The position numbers were made by a program, and so were the translations under genes. A stretch of DNA of 64,000 nt from Nitrospira sp. CR1.1 (GTDB lineage: Bacteria; Nitrospirota; Nitrospiria; Nitrospirales; Nitrospiraceae), in assembly GCA_014055465.1 (NCBI GenBank), contig WIAF01000002.1, positions 62,001 through 126,000 on the forward strand, written 5' to 3'. This document shows, in pieces, positions 9,442 through 63,462 of the stretch (positions within the stretch are counted from its first letter, which is position 1; each line of letters starts with the position of its first letter). Below the pieces are notes generated by a model. That model made no database searches and was not told where the DNA came from. It saw nothing but the letters and a program-made list of their open reading frames with translations.

Positions 9442-9477
9442 ACGGCCCCTGAACGACCCGAGAACGCCGCTGGCAGC
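9442..9477. repeat. Solo 3' half of the 124-bp intergenic element
   Basis: This stretch repeats the right-hand part of the element that follows it: the shared core GAGAACGCCGCTGGC (9460-9474) is preceded by CCCTGAACGA, matching CCCTGAGCGA of the full copy. It begins 2 bp after the kinase stop codon. No left half is present, so it is a truncated copy or the product of tandem exchange with the adjacent full copy. Confidence 0.55.
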
Positions 9478-9494: not shown

Positions 9495-9617
9495 CAGGAG
9501 GCTCAAACAGGCTGTCCAGCAAGGCCGCAGCAAGGGAAGGGCCGAAGCGTACCCTTGCGGTACGTTGAGGCCCTGAGCGAGGCGAGAACGCCGCTGGCGG
9601 CCTGTTTCAGCCTCCTG
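9495..9617. repeat. Intergenic inverted-repeat element, copy A
   Basis: A 123-bp unit with terminal arms 9495-9520 and 9593-9617 that pair almost fully (one mismatch column and one offset). Inside are the family motifs AAGGCCGCAG (9521-9530), a double hairpin GGGCC / CGTACC ... GGTACG / GGCCC (9539-9572) and GAGAACGCC just before the right arm. It fills the gap between the convergent kinase and M48 genes and ends 3 bp from the M48 stop. Related copies lie at 49205, 52833, 62384 and 63339. There is no T-tract, so it is not a classic terminator. Confidence 0.85.
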
Positions 9618-9620
9618 CCC

Positions 9621-10493
9621 CTAGATGCGTTTGGTCATGCGCGAGAACCGCTCCTGTAACAGGACGCCGGTGGCGGCAAGATGTTTGCCCTGAATCGTTT
9701 TCTGCACTGCCTCGATACGCGCTGAAAAGTTGGGATGGGTTTTAAACAAAGCCCGGTCATCGCCCTTGAGGTCCCGTAAGCGCGTCAGCAAGCCCACATA
9801 GGCCTCCGCGTCGTAACCGACCCGCGCCGCGAACACTTCGCCGACCGTATCGGCTTCCGTTTCCTTCTCCTGATCCAGGCCTTCATCGAGCAACTTCTTG
9901 ACCGCGCCGTCAATCACGGTCTTGAACGCCGCCGGATTGCTCGTCGCATACGACAGGCCCGCTTCGGTCACACCTGCCAGGCGCTTGCTCCGCTGAATGA
10001 CATCGAGAATGTGCTTTTGGCTCACGTGGGCGATTTCATGTCCCAACACCGCGGCCAACTCCGCCTCGTTTCGGATCTGCTTGAGCAGACCGCGCGTGAC
10101 AAAGATGTATCCGGCCGGCGCGGCAAAGGCATTGATCGATTCATGCTCCAGAATCGCCACCCGATAGGGAATATCCGGCCGGTCGGACGTGTTGGCGACT
10201 GCCCGCCCGACCAGATTCACATACCGGACGAGCTCCGGTTGATCCACGACTCCGCCATACCGTGCCACAACCTGCAAGGCCATCGACTGGCCGATCGACG
10301 ACTCCTCCTCATAGCCGATGGGGAACAGACTCCCGACAACATTGCCGACCCCATGAATGGCCCCGGCCAAGCGCGGATTACCGGATTGTCGCGCGATATC
10401 TTCACTGGCTCGCTGCACGTCCGCGCAACCGGCCGCGGCCAGAGAAAAGGCAATCAACGTTGCCGCCAGATTCTGATTACTTCGCATATTCAC
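9621..10493 (-). CDS. M48-family metalloprotease lipoprotein
   Basis: A 290-residue exported protein with a lipobox (LAAAGC) after a short hydrophobic signal, so it should be lipid-anchored in the envelope. The zinc site HEIAH is in the family context VLGHEIAHVSQKH, with the third ligand in EKETEADTVG. M48 proteins of this type (Loi/BepA-like) degrade or chaperone misfolded outer-membrane proteins. The TPR region of BepA is missing. The start overlaps the preceding SH3 gene by 17 bp, indicating an operon with it and the adenylate cyclase. Confidence 0.9.
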   Translation of the reverse strand: MNMRSNQNLAATLIAFSLAAAGCADVQRASEDIARQSGNPRLAGAIHGVGNVVGSLFPIGYEEESSIGQSMALQVVARYGGVVDQPELVRYVNLVGRAVANTSDRPDIPYRVAILEHESINAFAAPAGYIFVTRGLLKQIRNEAELAAVLGHEIAHVSQKHILDVIQRSKRLAGVTEAGLSYATSNPAAFKTVIDGAVKKLLDEGLDQEKETEADTVGEVFAARVGYDAEAYVGLLTRLRDLKGDDRALFKTHPNFSARIEAVQKTIQGKHLAATGVLLQERFSRMTKRI

Positions 10494-49204: not shown

Positions 49205-49328
49205 CAGGACGCTCAAAAAGGCTGATCAGCAAGGCCGCAGCGAGAGAGCATGTGAGGCGTACCCTCAGCGGTACGTTGAACATGCGAGCGACGCGAGAAC
49301 GCTGCTGGCGGGCTTTTTCAGCGTCCTG
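49205..49328. repeat. Intergenic inverted-repeat element, copy B
   Basis: A 124-bp unit with arms 49205-49230 and 49304-49328 pairing almost throughout. The internal double hairpin is GCATGT / CGTACC ... GGTACG / ACATGC (49248-49285). The motifs AAGGCCGCAG (49231) and GAGAACGC (49296) match copy A. The arms differ from those of copy A but differ together: GGAGGCT/AGCCTCC in A is GGACGCT/AGCGTCC here. It fills the gap between the convergent DUF2024 and lspA genes and ends at the base before the lspA stop codon. Confidence 0.88.
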
Positions 49329-49850
49329 TCAGGAGGGGGGATTCTCGGACACCACCGGACTGTGCTCAGACTCCTTCTCCAACGCGAAGTGCAGGATCAG
49401 GAACACCACCCCGACCGTAATGGCCGAATCGGCCACATTAAACGCCGGCCAATGGTACCCGTTAATATAAAAGTCGAGGAAATCGATCACTTCCCCGTAG
49501 CGCAGCCGGTCCAATAAGTTGCCGATTGCTCCGCCCAGAATCCCCGCCACGCTCAGCCGCCCCATCCAGTCATCCTTCGGCATACGCACGAGAATCATCC
49601 CCAGTAAACCCACGGCGAAGATCGAGGTCAATCCGAAGAACACGAACCGGAATGAGCTACTGCTGGACGACAGGAAGCCAAACGCCGCGCCGGGATTGCG
49701 GATATAGGTAATACTAAACAGGTTGGTGATGACGGGAATGGACTCATGGAGCCGCATGGTCTCCATGACATAGACCTTGGTGGCTTGGTCCACTACCACG
49801 ATCGCCAGGCTAAGCAATCCAAGCAGGAGATACCGGATAGATGGACTCAC
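49329..49850 (-). CDS. lspA: Lipoprotein signal peptidase
   Basis: From GTG 49850 the product has 173 residues and four membrane helices. The catalytic aspartates are in the family motifs YIRNPGAAFGF (preceding region), GGAIGNLLDRL and FNVADSAIT. It removes signal peptides of lipoproteins, several of which are encoded in this window. The GTG overlaps the ileS stop (GTGA), so the two are coupled; ileS-lspA order is common in bacteria. The longer frame to 50192 lies within ileS and is rejected. Confidence 0.95.
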   Translation of the reverse strand: MSPSIRYLLLGLLSLAIVVVDQATKVYVMETMRLHESIPVITNLFSITYIRNPGAAFGFLSSSSSSFRFVFFGLTSIFAVGLLGMILVRMPKDDWMGRLSVAGILGGAIGNLLDRLRYGEVIDFLDFYINGYHWPAFNVADSAITVGVVFLILHFALEKESEHSPVVSENPPS

Positions 49851-52666
49851 TGGACCGCCTCGATGCAACGATCGCAGAGAGTGGGATGGTCTGCAGAAGC
49901 GCCCACGGCCGATCGGTAGTTCCAACAACGTTCGCACTTCGCACCGGTCGCCTTCTCGACCGTGATCGCAAACCCGGAACTGCCAGGCACAGGAGCGACC
50001 GCATTGAGAACCACTTCGGACACGATAAAGAATGACGACAGATCCTGGCCGTAGCCCTTCAAGAATTCGTATGCGCTGGCATCGGCTTCGATGACGACTC
50101 GCGCTTCCAATGGCGCGCCGATCACCTTCTCGCGACGTTTGACTTCCAGCGCAGCCTGAGCGGCGGTCCTCACCTCGAGCAGCCGTTCCCACCGCTGCGC
50201 CAGCGTTGGATCTGCCCAGCGCGGATCAACCTCCGGGAACATGGCGATATGGACACTCTCAGCGTTCGCCTCTGCCCGCACAGACTCCGGCAACGTTCTC
50301 CAGATTTCCTCGGCGGTGAAACTCAACACCGGCGCCATCAATTTGGTCAACGCCACCACAATCTCAAACAGCACCGTCTGCGAGCCGCGCCGCAACGGAG
50401 AATCCTTGCGGAAGGTATACAAGCGGTCCTTCAGGATATCCAGATACACGGCGCTCAAATCGACGGAACAAAAGTTGTTCAGCGCGTGAAAGATCGTATG
50501 GAACTCAAATTCGTCATACCCCTTGCACACGCGCGGAATCAGTTCGCCCAGCCGCATGAGCGCCCAGCGGTCTAATTCGGGCAACTGCTCAAAGGGCACA
50601 CGGTGCTGCGCCGGCTCGAAGTCATACAGATTGCTCAGCAGGAAGCGGCAGGTATTGCGAATCTTGCGATAGGCTTCAATCAGGTGATTCAGGATCTCCT
50701 GCGAAATTCGAAGGTCTTCGCGATAGTCCTGGGCCGACACCCAAAGACGAAGGATCTCCGCGCCCGATTGTTTGATGACATCCTGGGGGGCGACAACGTT
50801 GCCCGCCGACTTCGACATCTTTCGCCCGGCCCCGTCCAACACGAAGCCATGCGTCAGCACGGCCTTGTATGGCGCTTGATGATCGGTGATGACCCCCGCC
50901 AGTAACGCGCTGTGGAACCAGCCGCGATGCTGGTCAGACCCTTCCAGATACAGATCCGCCGGATACCAGCGGCGACTCTTCAACACAGCCGCGTAACTCA
51001 CGCCGGATTCGAACCACACGTCCAGAATGTCGCGTTCCTTCTCGAATGCAGTTCCGCCACATCCGTCGCAACTGGTTCCGGAAGGAAGCAACGCGCCGGC
51101 CTGATTGGCAAACCAGTAGTCCGTGCCATGTTGGCCGATGAGATCCGCCACATGATCGATGACCTGGGGGTGGGCCAGCACCTTGCCGCATTTTACACAG
51201 GTAAAGCCGGGGATCGGCGTGCCCCAGACCCGTTGGCGTGACAGGCACCAATCGGGGCGGTTCTCGATCATCCCGTTGATGCGGTCACGGCCATAGGCAG
51301 GAATCCAGCGCACCCGTTCAATCTCCGCGAGCGCCTCTTTCCGCAGCTCATTCGTCTCCATCGAGACGAACCACTGCTCAGTCGCGCGAAAGATCACCGG
51401 CTGCTTGCACCGCCAGCAATGGGGATAGGAGTGCTTGAGTGATCCGTGGCCGAGTAAGCGGCCGTTTTCTTTGAGGCGTTCCGCGATTTTCGGGTTGGCC
51501 TTGAACACATGCTGGCCGGCGAACTCCGGAACCGCCTCGGTAAACTTCCCGCCATTGTCCACCGGCGCCAGAATTTCGAGTCGCTCTCCGACGCTAGCCT
51601 TGGCATTGTGATCCAACACCAGCAGATAGTCTTCCATGCCGTGGCCAGGCGCGATATGCACGCACCCGGTTCCCTGCTCCAACGTCACAAAATCTCCCAG
51701 GAGCAGCGGCGAAAGGCCCGTGGTTAGGGGGCGCTGGGTTTCCAACCCTTCAAATCCCTCGCGACCTTTTTTCACCGCGACGATCGTGTAGTTCGACAGA
51801 CTGCAGGCCTTGGCAACCGACTCGACCAGCTTCTCGGCCATGACCAGCAATTCGTCCCCGACCTGCACAAAGGCATAGTCGATATCGGGATGAAGACAGA
51901 CGGCCTGATTGGCCGGCAGGGTCCAAGGGGTGGTCGTCCAGATCAGGACGGAGGCGCTCTTCACATCGGCAGGAAATGCAAGCCCGCCGAATCTCTTGCT
52001 CAAGAGAGCCGGAGAATTCACCAACGGAAACTTCACATAGACCGAGGGCGACGTGTGATCGTCGTATTCGACTTCCGCTTCGGCCAGCGCGGTCTGATCT
52101 TGCGTGCACCACAAGACCGGCTTCAACCCTTTGTAGACCCCGCCTCGCTCCACAAACCGGCCGAACTCGCGGATGATGGTGCCCTCATACGCCGGATTCA
52201 ACGTGAGATAGGGTTGTTGCCATTCGCCCAGCACACCCAGCCGCTGAAACTCCTCGCGCTGGATCGCCACATACTTTTCCGCATATTCCTTACAGAGTTT
52301 GCGGATCGCGAGCGCATCCAAGTCCCGCTTCTTATCCCCCAGTTCCTTCAGGACTTGATGTTCGATCGGCAGGCCATGGCAATCCCAGCCCGGCACATAC
52401 GGCACCTGGTAGCCGGACATCGTCTTCGATTTGACGATAATGTCTTTCAGAATTTTGTTCAGTGCGTGACCGATGTGGATCCGCCCGTTGGCATAGGGCG
52501 GGCCATCGTGGAGGATGTATCGTTCACGCCCCTGACGAGATTCCTGGATCCGTTCGTACAGCCGTTCCTGCGCCCATCGGGCCAGCATCTCCGGCTCCCG
52601 TTGCGGCAGGTTCGCCTTCATGGGGAAGTCGGTCTTCGGCAAATTGAGGGTCGATTTATAGTCCAT
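49847..52666 (-). CDS. ileS: Isoleucyl-tRNA synthetase
   Basis: A 939-residue class I synthetase with HIGH at residues 64-67 (GRIHIGHALNKILKD), a CP1 editing domain, KMSKS (GRKMSKSAGN) and a C-terminal zinc site (GAKCERCWNYRS ... LCDRC). The length and the C-terminal zinc ribbon match the common bacterial (type 1) form. It precedes lspA in a two-gene operon. The 336 bp upstream contain intergenic element copy C and no gene. Confidence 0.97.
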   Translation of the reverse strand: MDYKSTLNLPKTDFPMKANLPQREPEMLARWAQERLYERIQESRQGRERYILHDGPPYANGRIHIGHALNKILKDIIVKSKTMSGYQVPYVPGWDCHGLPIEHQVLKELGDKKRDLDALAIRKLCKEYAEKYVAIQREEFQRLGVLGEWQQPYLTLNPAYEGTIIREFGRFVERGGVYKGLKPVLWCTQDQTALAEAEVEYDDHTSPSVYVKFPLVNSPALLSKRFGGLAFPADVKSASVLIWTTTPWTLPANQAVCLHPDIDYAFVQVGDELLVMAEKLVESVAKACSLSNYTIVAVKKGREGFEGLETQRPLTTGLSPLLLGDFVTLEQGTGCVHIAPGHGMEDYLLVLDHNAKASVGERLEILAPVDNGGKFTEAVPEFAGQHVFKANPKIAERLKENGRLLGHGSLKHSYPHCWRCKQPVIFRATEQWFVSMETNELRKEALAEIERVRWIPAYGRDRINGMIENRPDWCLSRQRVWGTPIPGFTCVKCGKVLAHPQVIDHVADLIGQHGTDYWFANQAGALLPSGTSCDGCGGTAFEKERDILDVWFESGVSYAAVLKSRRWYPADLYLEGSDQHRGWFHSALLAGVITDHQAPYKAVLTHGFVLDGAGRKMSKSAGNVVAPQDVIKQSGAEILRLWVSAQDYREDLRISQEILNHLIEAYRKIRNTCRFLLSNLYDFEPAQHRVPFEQLPELDRWALMRLGELIPRVCKGYDEFEFHTIFHALNNFCSVDLSAVYLDILKDRLYTFRKDSPLRRGSQTVLFEIVVALTKLMAPVLSFTAEEIWRTLPESVRAEANAESVHIAMFPEVDPRWADPTLAQRWERLLEVRTAAQAALEVKRREKVIGAPLEARVVIEADASAYEFLKGYGQDLSSFFIVSEVVLNAVAPVPGSSGFAITVEKATGAKCERCWNYRSAVGASADHPTLCDRCIEAVQ

Positions 52667-52832: not shown

Positions 52833-53000
52833 CAGGATCGTCAAAAGCGTCTTCCGGCAAGACCGCAGCGAGCGAGAATGCGAGGCGTCACGTTCTTACC
52901 CGCCCGCCCTGCGCCTGCCTAGACAGGCGCTTTTACCCTTAGCGGTCCGTTGAACGTGCGAGCGACGCGAGAACGCCGGCGGCGGCCTTTCTCAACAGCT
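52833..53000. repeat. Intergenic inverted-repeat element, enlarged copy C
   Basis: The family motifs AAGACCGCAGCGAG (52859), GAGGCG (52882), CGTTGAACGTGCGAGCGA (52948) and GAGAACGCCG (52970) occur in order. The inner hairpin loop is replaced by about 45 extra bases holding a separate stem GCGCCTG (52911-52917) / CAGGCGC (52924-52930). Terminal arms are degraded. It ends 2 bp before the nadA stop codon and lies between nadA and ileS, both on the minus strand. Confidence 0.65.
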
Positions 53001-53002
53001 TG

Positions 53003-54142
53003 CTAGCTGAGAGCCATCATGCGGTCCAAAGCCACCTTCGCCCACCGCTTCTCATCATCCGGCACGACAATGTGGTTGACCACATGCCCATCGGCAAGGT
53101 TTTCCAGCGCCCAACAGAGGTGCGGAGCGTCGATGCGATACATGGTGGCGCATTGACAAACCGTCGAGGAGAGGAAAAACACTTTCTTGTCAGTCTGCTC
53201 GTGTTTCAACCGATTGACCAAATTCAGCTCAGTCCCGACCGCCCAAGTCGTGCCCGCAGGCGCTGCCGTGATCGTGCGAATGATATATTCCGTCGAACCC
53301 ACAAGGTCGGCCTTGTTGACCACATCTTCATGGCATTCGGGATGCACGATCACCTTCACGTCCTGGTATTGCCTGCGAAAATAGTCCACATGCGAGGGCT
53401 GAAACATCTGGTGCACGCTGCAATGCCCCTTCCAGAGGATCAACTTGGCACGCAGAATGGCTTCCACCGAGTTGCCGCCGCGCGGCATGTAGGGATCCCA
53501 GACAATCATCTGCTCGCGCGGGATGCCCATTTTATTCGCCGTATTCCGGCCCAGATGCTCGTCGGGGAAAAACAGAATCTTCTCGCGCCGCGCCCAGCTC
53601 CATTCGATCACCTTGCGTGCGTTCGACGAGGTGCAGGTCAGCCCGCCATGCTCGCCGCAGAAGGCCTTCAAGATCGCCGCAGAGTTCACGTAGACCGCCG
53701 GCATAACCGTCTCTTCCACCGGCACCACCCGACCGAGTGCATCCCAGCACTGTTCGACCTGTTCAATCGCCGCCATATCGGCCATAGAGCAGCCCGCCGC
53801 CATGTCAGGGAGAATGACGGTTTGGTTGGAGCGGCTCAACACATCAGCCGTTTCCGCCATGAAGTGCACGCCGCAGAACACCACATAGGGACGATCGGAA
53901 CGCTGCTCGGCGACTTGCGCCAATATCAGGGAGTCGCCGCGAAAATCGGCGTGCTGAATCACTTCATCGCGTTGATAATTATGGCCGAGGATCATCACCC
54001 GGTCACCCAGCGCCCGTTTGGCCGCACGGGTCCGTTCGAAGAGTGCTTCGGCAGACAGAGACTGGTAATCGGTAATAGGACGCGGAAGCGTGGCGACCGT
54101 TTTCACCTGCAGCCTTTCGGTTGAGTCCATCCCCTGTGTCAC
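53003..54142 (-). CDS. nadA: Quinolinate synthase A
   Basis: A 379-residue [4Fe-4S] enzyme that condenses iminoaspartate and dihydroxyacetone phosphate to quinolinate. Family segments are ILGHNYQRDEVIQHADFRGDS, FCGVHFMAETADVLS, AAGCSMADMA, VNSAAILKAF and HPECHEDVV, which hold the substrate and cluster ligands. The length fits the longer bacterial form. nadB and nadC are not in the window; nadD is at 30.9 kb. It stands alone. Confidence 0.96.
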   Translation of the reverse strand: MTQGMDSTERLQVKTVATLPRPITDYQSLSAEALFERTRAAKRALGDRVMILGHNYQRDEVIQHADFRGDSLILAQVAEQRSDRPYVVFCGVHFMAETADVLSRSNQTVILPDMAAGCSMADMAAIEQVEQCWDALGRVVPVEETVMPAVYVNSAAILKAFCGEHGGLTCTSSNARKVIEWSWARREKILFFPDEHLGRNTANKMGIPREQMIVWDPYMPRGGNSVEAILRAKLILWKGHCSVHQMFQPSHVDYFRRQYQDVKVIVHPECHEDVVNKADLVGSTEYIIRTITAAPAGTTWAVGTELNLVNRLKHEQTDKKVFFLSSTVCQCATMYRIDAPHLCWALENLADGHVVNHIVVPDDEKRWAKVALDRMMALS

Positions 54143-55223: not shown

Positions 55224-55383
55224 AACCTCAGATTTCATTATCTTGAAGCGCCCAAAACCTTCTCCTCGTCGCTTCAGTCGGACCCGAGAGAACACCTATA
55301 ATGAATAGTCGCTGTGTCATAGACTGACACCTTATGCGATCGAGCGGGTGGTCCCAGCCGTTCCCAAAGATCATTCTCCCGAA

Positions 55384-55513
55384 CTACTGCGGCAGCGGAA
55401 TCGTCAGCCGAACCCCTCCCATAACATCCTCCGGCTTGAAATCTTTCTTCCGGCTATTGTGATGGAAATTATGGCAGCCGATACAAGACCGGGATGCTGC
55501 TGACACTTTAGGG
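55384..55513 (-). pseudogene. 3' fragment of a c-type heme (DUF3365) gene
   Basis: Translation on the minus strand gives SRSCIGCHN, then KKDFKPEDVMGG and LTIPLPQ-stop, close to the end of the intact gene at 58845 (SQSCIGCHN, KKDFKPQDVMGG, LTIPLSH-stop). Similarity stops abruptly about 10 residues before the heme motif, and no start is available. It is a truncated duplicate of that gene, 3.3 kb away. The remaining 55224-55383 and 55514-55599 show no gene. Confidence 0.75.
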
Positions 55514-58215: not shown

Positions 58216-58844
58216 GGGACACCTCGTTTGAAGCGTAGAGTTGTGGCAGTTGTACGGGGGCGCTACGACAGTCTATTGAGAGCAAACCGTGTACCGCATT
58301 CGACGCCGGCGCACTCCACGCATGGAACAAAAAACAGGTATTTGGAAGTCTGTGAAATATTGCGTATCCGACCCGCCGCCCGCGGGCCGGCACTCAGGTC
58401 ACGGCATCCGTTCCCGTATCCGATACGATACGAGGGCGGTATCTGATGCGATACACGCGCGCAGGACATACAGCACATGCTCACGGTGCTTCGCGATGCA
58501 TACCGTGAAATGATGTGCGAAGGAAAACCTTCTCGCCCCGGGTGCGTCCGGTCTCCTGCCATCCCGTGCTCCCGACTCGTCGCACCGACAACATGCCGTG
58601 ACGCATCTTCCGCCGCATCGTTCAGAATCGTCTGGATGGTGAAATCGCAGCCATAGGGACCGGGAGTCTGTTCCCGGCTGTCCGTTGCGCTTCAAGAAGG
58701 TGAGTCGTTACCGGTCCGCTGAATCAGTCTCGGTGACCAAGCGGTCGGGGTAGGGTGGTCCATGGGCGGAATTGCCGGATGTTGGATCGAGACACAGGCC
58801 GACCATGCTCGGTTAACCCGCTCTCGTTGTCCGATCCTCGCCGC
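58216..58844. other. 629-bp gap with operator-like tandem dyads, no convincing gene
   Basis: No frame here has codon use or domains like a gene; the longest minus-strand frame (58399-58695) is Cys/Arg-rich and unconvincing. The notable feature is a pair of 16-bp direct repeats, GTATCCGATACGATAC (58416-58431) and GTATCTGATGCGATAC (58439-58454), 14 of 16 identical and 23 bp apart. Each contains a GTATC/GATAC dyad. A shorter match GTATCCGA is at 58364. They sit about 200-240 bp upstream of the 58215 start. Confidence 0.5.
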
Positions 58845-59441
58845 CTAGTGAGACAGCGGAATCGTGAGCAGAATCCCTCCCATCACGTCCTGCGGCTTGA
58901 AATCCTTTTTCGGACTATTGGGATGGGCATTGTGGCAGCCGATACAAGACTGGGATACCGCTTTGTCTGCATAAATGGCTTGAAACACAGGAGTGCCGCC
59001 CTCGGCAGTCACAGCGGTATAGGGTTGATCGGGATTCACGAGAATTTCCGTCAGGCCGGCCCGCTCAAAGTCGGTCATCGGCCGGTTCTTGGTATTGATC
59101 GCCCAATTGCTGATCAACCGGTATTGCAGCCCGTTTCGCCCTGCCGCCACAAGCCGCCCGGTTTCCAACAAATATTGAGCCGGAAGGGGAAGCCGGGACG
59201 TCTCCCGCCAGTTTTCCGCGGCAAAAGCAATCCCGCGCATCTGCATCCGCTCAACGACATCCGTCGTGTAAAATGTGCGATCCGCCTGGATGACGCTATG
59301 CAGATACTCGGCCACCGCCCCTGCCTCGATGCAGGTGGGCCGCCCGCCCTCCTTGCCGGCGGTGGCAAAGCCCCCCTGCCCCATCAGGCCCATCACCCCC
59401 GCGCCCAGAACCAGGCCCAGCCAAAAACCTCTCCCGTTCAT
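58845..59441 (-). CDS. Exported c-type heme protein, Tll0287-like (DUF3365)
   Basis: From ATG 59441, which follows GGAGG, the product has 198 residues. A signal peptide (about 1-27, GFWLGLVLGAGVMGLMG) is followed by the DUF3365 body and one c-heme motif CIGCH at 166-170, with the ending KKDFKPQDVMGGILLTIPL. It is probably periplasmic and senses or carries electrons or small ligands; the role is not known. A truncated copy lies at 55384 and a more distant paralogue at 14909. Confidence 0.82.
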   Translation of the reverse strand: MNGRGFWLGLVLGAGVMGLMGQGGFATAGKEGGRPTCIEAGAVAEYLHSVIQADRTFYTTDVVERMQMRGIAFAAENWRETSRLPLPAQYLLETGRLVAAGRNGLQYRLISNWAINTKNRPMTDFERAGLTEILVNPDQPYTAVTAEGGTPVFQAIYADKAVSQSCIGCHNAHPNSPKKDFKPQDVMGGILLTIPLSH

Positions 59442-60270: not shown

Positions 60271-60278
60271 CACCAACG

Positions 60279-60364
60279 ACAGCTAGGGGTGCCATCCGGC
60301 TGAGAGTCCGAGCGATCGGACGACCCTCACAACCTGACCTGGGTAATACCAGCGTAGGGAAGCG
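60279..60364 (+). promoter_or_regulatory. TPP riboswitch (THI element)
   Basis: The conserved THI-box parts occur in order: GGGGTGCC (60286-60293), CTGAGAG (60300-60306), ACCCTCACAACCTGACCTGG (60323-60342), and GTAATACCAGCGTAGGGAA (60343-60361). The first and last pair to close the aptamer. It senses thiamine pyrophosphate and should repress thiC when thiamine is plentiful. A terminator hairpin follows after about 28 bp, pointing to transcriptional control. Confidence 0.96.
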
Positions 60365-60385
60365 ACCGGTTCACTGGCTTCGTGA

Positions 60386-62383
<1,998 letters not shown>

Positions 62384-62504
62384 GGCTCGTCAAAATGGCT
62401 ACCCAGCGAGGCCGCAGACGAGTCCAAACCGGAGGCGTACCCTCAGGGGCACGTTGAGGATTTGGGCGAGCTGAGAACGAAGCTGGAAGTCATGTTCAAC
62501 AGCC
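62384..62504. repeat. Intergenic inverted-repeat element, copy D
   Basis: A 121-bp unit starting at the base after the thiC stop codon. It has GAGGCCGCAG (62409), an internal double hairpin with outer stem GTCCAAACC / GGATTTGGGC and inner stem CGTACC / GGCACG (one mismatch), then GAGAACGAAGCTGG (62473). Terminal arms GGCT...CCAGC and GCTGG...AGCC pair with some gaps. It separates thiC from thi4, 18 bp before the thi4 start. The outer inner-hairpin stem differs entirely from other copies yet still pairs. Confidence 0.8.
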
Positions 62505-62522
62505 GCTGAAGGGAAAAACCGC

Positions 62523-63338: not shown

Positions 63339-63462
63339 GCGGCTTCTCAAACGGGTTTCCAGCAAGGCCGCAGGAAGCGAAATCGACGAGGCGTACTGTG
63401 TTCGTACGTCGAGTTGAGTGAGCGCCCGAGAACGCAGCCGGAAACCTGTTTCAGAAGCCGCA
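63339..63462. repeat. Intergenic inverted-repeat element, copy E
   Basis: A 124-bp unit with arms 63339-63364 and 63437-63462, complementary at 23 of 26 positions. Inside are AAGGCCGCAG (63364-63373), a double hairpin TCGAC / CGTAC ... GTACG / GTTGA (63383-63415) and GAGAACGC (63428). It starts 15 bp after the thi4 stop and ends one base before the ATG of the TPR gene, leaving no free space for a separate ribosome site. Confidence 0.88.

Follow-up and report, generated by a model that had tools for sequence, protein, structure and literature searches.

Copy B of the hairpin studied here occupies positions 49205-49328 of the plus strand in a 64-kb window of Nitrospira DNA (the whole stretch that was analysed) and ends directly at the stop codon of lspA (TGA, 49329-49331; minus-strand ORF 49329-50192). 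It matches our covariance model at 130.8 bits over positions 1-123 of 123, has a predicted folding energy of -63 kcal/mol against -42.5 (sd 3.8) for shuffled sequences (z -5.5), and is mostly 73-80% identical to its full-length blastn matches. The outer stem pairs GGACGCT (49207-49213) with AGCGTCC (49320-49326), within covarying columns 1-9 and 115-123; on the minus strand the right end reads as a transposon-type terminal repeat (CAGGACGCTGAAAAAG). Two nearly invariant internal-loop motifs follow, AAGGCCGCAG on the 5' side (49231-49240) and CGAGAACG on the 3' side (49294-49301), and then an inner stem of GCATGT (49248-49253) and ACATGC (49280-49285), with columns 41-49 covarying with 75-83. 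The apical stem-loop, GGCGTACC...GGTACGTT (49256-49277), has G.T pairs at its base and a conserved tandem G.A below it.

Further plus-strand copies lie elsewhere in the window. Copy A (9495-9617; 140.3 bits) is preceded by a remnant of the 3' half of another copy (9447-9477, plus strand; direct repeat family D4), and a minus-strand ORF (9621-10493) ends 3 nt past its right end. Copy C (52833-53002; 60.1 bits) carries an insert of about 47 bp in its apical part, and the CTAG on its right flank is the stop of a minus-strand ORF (53003-54142). Copy D (62382-62506; 73.4 bits) starts at the stop of a plus-strand ORF of 638 aa (60467-62383), probably thiC; a TPP riboswitch (60275-60377; 66.8 bits, Rfam) lies upstream of this ORF. 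Copy E spans 63339-63461 (91.3 bits). The letters C and D were assigned in the present analysis. The paired arms quoted in the first-pass annotation are all present: GGAGGCT/AGCCTCC and GGGCC/GGCCC in copy A, GGACGCT/AGCGTCC and GCATGT/ACATGC in copy B, CCAAA/TTTGG in copy D, and GCGGCTTCT/AGAAGCCGC and TCGAC/GTTGA in copy E. The window also holds a direct repeat of 129 nt (55373-55501 and 58834-58962; 81% identity), in which we saw no relation to the hairpin, and an inverted repeat of 34 nt (1059-1092 and 1511-1544; 91% complementary, 418 nt apart) made of AACGT/AAAGGT-like units.

Genome-wide, a covariance model (R1) built from 22 of the genome's own copies gave 113 matches at E<=1, and we count about 109 copies (129 model rows, less 20 at the same places on the other strand; 87 sources searched), some of them in arrays (L067, L052). 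Among the 22 model sequences, 93.3% of cells pair as against 82.5% after shuffling, both partners change at 26 of 42 pairs, and the covariation score is 0.334 (0.144 when shuffled); none of 500 shuffles came up to any of these values, and structures slid along the alignment score far lower. A larger set comprised 110 non-redundant copies, 65 own and 45 from relatives, aligned by sequence only and placed on a FastTree tree; lengths outside 117-128 nt, own copies below 60 bits and sequences more than 93% alike were left out (152 reduced to 110). The null was 60 simulated alignments, with substitutions per column kept and branches weighted, produced by our own script in the manner of R-scape, so that E is not resolved below about 0.017. 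Six of 7140 column pairs reached E<=0.05 and ten E<=1, all on the diagonal i+j=124: 1-123, 2-122, 5-119, 6-118, 8-116, 14-110 and 15-109 in the outer stem, and 41-83, 46-78 and 48-76 in the inner stem. The claim that the arms change in step is thereby borne out, the ten best pairs all falling on predicted stems, and the R-scape-style check proposed with that claim finds covarying pairs in both stems. The relatives in this set were top model hits, which lean towards pairing; a replicate free of that lean, 107 copies chosen by the unpaired motifs GGCCGCAG...CGTAC...CGAGAACG alone (126 before sequences more than 93% alike were removed), gave three pairs at E<=0.05 and nine at E<=1, eight of the nine on the diagonal, with the inner stem strongest. 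The weaker outer stem in the replicate is probably due to boundaries having been cut at fixed distances.

As the stems change, the unpaired parts stay fixed, which agrees with the earlier reading: across the 110 copies, constancy in the GGCCGCAG and CGAGAACG columns is about 90-99%. Conservation extends beyond the loops to the GTAC tip, the tandem G.A/A.G and, in 95 of 109, the C.C mismatch at 10-114. The best evidence that the folded form is constrained comes from two distant copies, in a groundwater Nitrospirae bin (L347) and in L348, whose stems are unrelated to those of Nitrospira while the loops and the total length are kept; both fold well (z -7.2 and -8.7). Our data therefore support covariation beyond shared ancestry and a constraint on the folded shape, and to that extent the proposal of selection on a folded RNA or single-stranded DNA is partly supported. 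The step from covariation to selection, however, had passed over two other sources of covariation, namely transposon ends and template switching, to which we return below.

Nor is the 124-bp hairpin an element by itself, as it had been described; it belongs to a MITE of about 203 bp, that is, a short, non-coding unit with terminal inverted repeats, a target duplication and ends shared with an insertion sequence (IS). In recent amplifications this unit, with no transposase inside, begins with a left terminal repeat and continues through a left part, constant in length (about 77 bp to the core) though not in sequence, to the hairpin core of 123-125 nt, the 3' arm of which is the right terminal repeat. 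The ends are IS5-type terminal repeats (CAGGNTGCGGAAAAA), recent copies having CAGGCTGCGGAAAAACTC on the left and CAGGATGCGGAAAAAGTC on the right, and the target duplication is a 4-bp YTAR, usually CTAG. In 20 near-identical own copies the left end, CAGGCTGCGGAAAAAC, lies about 77 nt ahead of the core, and most of these copies have an identical YTAR 4-mer on both sides, with variants changing in step (TTAG/TTAG, ATAG/ATAG). G014, G001 and N. defluvii (G023, same genus) share this layout but have other left parts, and their duplications include CTAA/CTAA and TTAG/TTAG. In a sample of 64 of the 67 N. defluvii copies, a left end is present at 60-95 nt in 31 (0-2 in controls), as it is at 70-94 nt in 12 of 79 older own copies (0-3 in other 25-nt windows); in most old copies the left end is not recognisable.

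Copy B is the right part of such an old MITE copy, with TCAG on its right and no clear match on its left. At the lspA site, G001 and G007 are empty, with a single CTAG, and G014 is filled, its copy lying between two CTAG; copy B in full is common only to G019, and six other genomes hold 3' remnants. Retroposition (a precise 3' end with truncated 5' ends) was considered, since all that remains at this site in several sister genomes is the 3' part; it is rejected by the matching duplications on both sides of young copies. Two further repeats accompany the family. One of about 66 bp (GTCCACGGCGCG...CACGTTTGTGGACGCC...GTGTCTT) is found in one or the other inner-stem arm of the core, or beside the MITE (own L080, L082, L083, L089 and L096; the lspA site of G019, G014 and G012), and seems to be an independent, nested palindromic element. 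Another, of about 47 bp (CACGTTCTTACCCGCCC...CCTGCC..GACAGGC), occurs in the apical loop of several cores, including copy C of the window (52833-53002), L052, L099 and L012, and also beside the MITE (flank of L143).

Members of the IS5 family use a YTAR target, and IS elements of this family carry the ends of the MITE in sister genomes. A DDE_Tnp_1 search of five genomes gave 45 matches, and a terminal-repeat scan took in 30 of those loci together with L183. One N. defluvii IS of 1316 bp (L187) has the terminal repeat on both sides between TTAG and TTAG and encodes a transposase of 342 aa of the IS5 family (NF033581, 278.9 bits, cut-off 140); two IS copies in G001 (L214, L215) have the ends of the MITE with CTAG and a protein 85% identical to that of L187. 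Since these elements have the same ends and target, movement of the MITE in trans by IS5-family transposases is strongly suggested by sequence. The hairpin core is absent from L187, and among the DDE_Tnp_1 matches scanned in the own genome there is no autonomous IS with the ends of the MITE; the partner there is possibly missing from the assembly. Transposases of the IS701 type also have a YTAR target, and we reject them as the source, the profile PF13546 being absent from the own genome and from 17 of 17 genomes of the same genus, with one match in 29 genomes overall.

Taken together, the locus is probably an old copy of a non-autonomous Nitrospira DNA transposon, a MITE moved by IS5-type transposases and carrying a hairpin whose fold is constrained. 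Under this explanation the constraint would fall on the folded single strand, most likely acting through the spread of the element itself, with a folded end or transcript recognised by a putative factor and the pairing perhaps refreshed in part by template switching. Copies landing on stop codons would be harmless, because the duplication keeps the stop, and ones with the hairpin directly behind the stop would be kept. Several observations count against this explanation: the lack of an own-genome IS with these ends and of a core in the N. defluvii IS, the many old copies without a recognisable left end, and the fact that IS5-type transposases are not known to require a folded end. So does the site G041, compared across four sister genomes, where six of six variable pairs changed one-sidedly or independently, with no pair-preserving double change among the orthologous copies. 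A candidate loop-reading factor was likewise not found among the neighbours, which also counts against it: of the recurrent neighbouring ORF groups considered as a trans factor, most resembled translations of the element and none stood out as a partner.

The alternative that survives best, although we regard it as rather unlikely, is that the hairpin is an RNA at gene 3' ends, acting as a terminator, stabiliser or processing site, with host selection on each copy and the MITE as just a carrier. It draws on the position of the copies. Minus-strand ORFs of 80 codons or more end 0-3 nt from the right end in 38 of 78 old own copies and in 24 of 45 old N. defluvii copies, as against 0-2 when the boundaries are shifted by 13-55 nt, and in 31 of 107 phylum-wide copies the stop lies at exactly position 0. 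Old copies have the stop on the right far more often than on the left (71 vs 13), whereas young copies do not (11 vs 12; Fisher p 0.0006). Part of this bias may be apparent, since decay of the left part may conceal some left-side insertions, and the simplest reading of the stop-codon contact is that YTAR includes the stops TAG and TAA and that the duplication keeps the stop. PMC10969869 and PMC2229807 report that ERIC and Correia MITEs act on transcripts in this way. No intrinsic terminator is predicted within the element at copy B, however, and the orthologous copies argue against selection on each of them by the host: they change without compensation, and at the G041 site the hairpin is partly lost in two further genomes.

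The choice of strand also speaks against this RNA reading, because the strand richer in G.T pairs is not the one that the abutting gene's transcript represents. In the 110-copy set G.T pairs exceed A.C pairs by 160 to 62, or by 123 to 53 when counted as events on the tree, and unpaired columns have no G.T bias, so mutation bias there does not create the excess. The N. defluvii copies (75/55, p 0.095) and the motif-chosen set of 107 (193/161, p 0.099; by copy 50 vs 27, p 0.012) weaken the case for strand-specific selection. Searches of Rfam placed no known RNA family on the element at the gathering score, and at E<=1 none on the core except a chance-level match to sR30 (0.47) overlapping the core in L001. 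At a different place, L020:2900-3107, an Rfam match to the 5' ureB sRNA scores 65.6 bits against a gathering score of 40 and is truncated where the locus ends.

It is less likely still that the fold is under no selection at all, the outer-stem covariation arising from ends that follow their transposase and the inner-stem covariation from template switching in which one arm keeps serving as template for the other. The outer arms are transposon ends or descend from them, the right one being a terminal repeat, and such ends alter in concert when the transposase partner is exchanged. Double changes arise in one step by template switching between the arms of a hairpin, as PMC8794818 describes, and in the young copy L041 a change at three bases (50, 51 and 53) copies the opposite arm exactly, alongside a double change at 4-120. 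The tree shows 247 double changes, as against 123 one-sided G.T and 53 one-sided A.C steps. Arm copying would, however, also repair the mismatches of the internal loops, yet positions 28-96, 30-94, 31-93, 33-91, 35-90 and 51-73 are Watson-Crick paired in just 0-2 of 110 copies, and the unrelated stems of L347 and L348, which keep loops and length, speak against it in the same way.

An origin as a REP-like element of a RAYT, a single-strand transposase, is highly improbable: many copies do have CTAG at one end without a visible match at the other, and the hairpins do lie at gene ends, but in young copies each side has its terminal repeat and a duplication that matches the other, and the sole Y1_Tnp/RAYT-like ORF found in the genome (L031:1120-1794; profile positions 4-85 of 121) looks cut short and has no core beside it; the other 494 loci contain no RAYT.

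The family that we read as a transposase-moved MITE with a constrained fold reaches well beyond this genome. Matches at E<=1e-6 were found in 59 of 61 related genomes, the own one included, and in 77 of 198 genomes of a phylum sample. In that sample no genome of the family is among those listed as unmatched, eight of nine listed genomes of the order matched, and beyond the order matches occur in three families of the class and in five elsewhere in the phylum; the core thus occurs in other classes of the phylum. Almost no copies are present in G004, G045 and G054, which belong to the genus or order (2, 0 and 0). The scan of named records gave at least 80 matches, those listed being nearly all titled Nitrospirota or Nitrospira. 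The L348 core (2124-2247), with its different stems and same loops, lies in a contig titled Phycisphaerae (Planctomycetota), possibly through transfer, shared ancestry or a binning error. The plasmids and phages searched gave no core match; viral contigs gave eight pattern matches, none confirmed by the covariance model at E<=0.001, and L318 (Methylomirabilota title) has the pattern and no model match, the model search of named and viral loci having covered 29 of them. A tentative extension is that the core is a phylum-wide folded motif of about 122 nt, with fixed internal loops AAGGCCGCAG/CGAGAACG, a GGCGTAC...GTACGTTGA tip and interchangeable stems. A putative trans-acting factor would recognise the folded single strand, as RNA or as ssDNA; in the Nitrospiraceae the motif would have been carried by IS5-type ends, outside that family by other means, and it would be retained immediately behind stop codons.

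Among the titles and abstracts of the open-access literature searched, we found no description of this Nitrospira element. REP hairpins measure 20-40 nt with a conserved tetranucleotide, and the target of ERIC is TA. Like REP/BIME sequences with their RAYT, the Nitrospira hairpins are palindromes at gene ends, at times in arrays, but the core has 124 nt, several stems and loops, and no functional link to a RAYT. PMC12306157 names N. moscoviensis among the genomes in which REP sequences were counted. ERIC/IRU of enterobacteria, as described in PMC10969869 and PMC2229807, is likewise an imperfect palindrome of about 127 bp that is intergenic, lies at gene 3' ends and depends on orientation; compared by description, the Nitrospira element differs in its IS5-type ends and in its 4-bp YTAR duplication. 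Bacterial MITEs in general, Correia/NEMIS and RUP among them, are according to the same two sources likewise short and non-coding, with terminal repeats shared with an IS, a target duplication, many intergenic copies and nesting with other repeats. The IS5 family has the terminal repeat and YTAR duplication in common with our MITE, which itself lacks a transposase gene, whereas the N. defluvii IS lacks the core.

What usually defines a bacterial MITE is its ends; the sequence between them can drift freely. In the Nitrospira MITE, by contrast, no part is better conserved than the interior, where the stems covary and the internal loops are fixed; the family has been amplified separately in several genomes with different left parts, and the core occurs in several classes of one phylum with left parts replaced. 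With hundreds of copies of various ages, the family is a natural test of the shares that selection on the fold and template switching have in compensatory change. It also hints at a putative loop-reading factor and at stop codons as places where insertion does the gene no harm.
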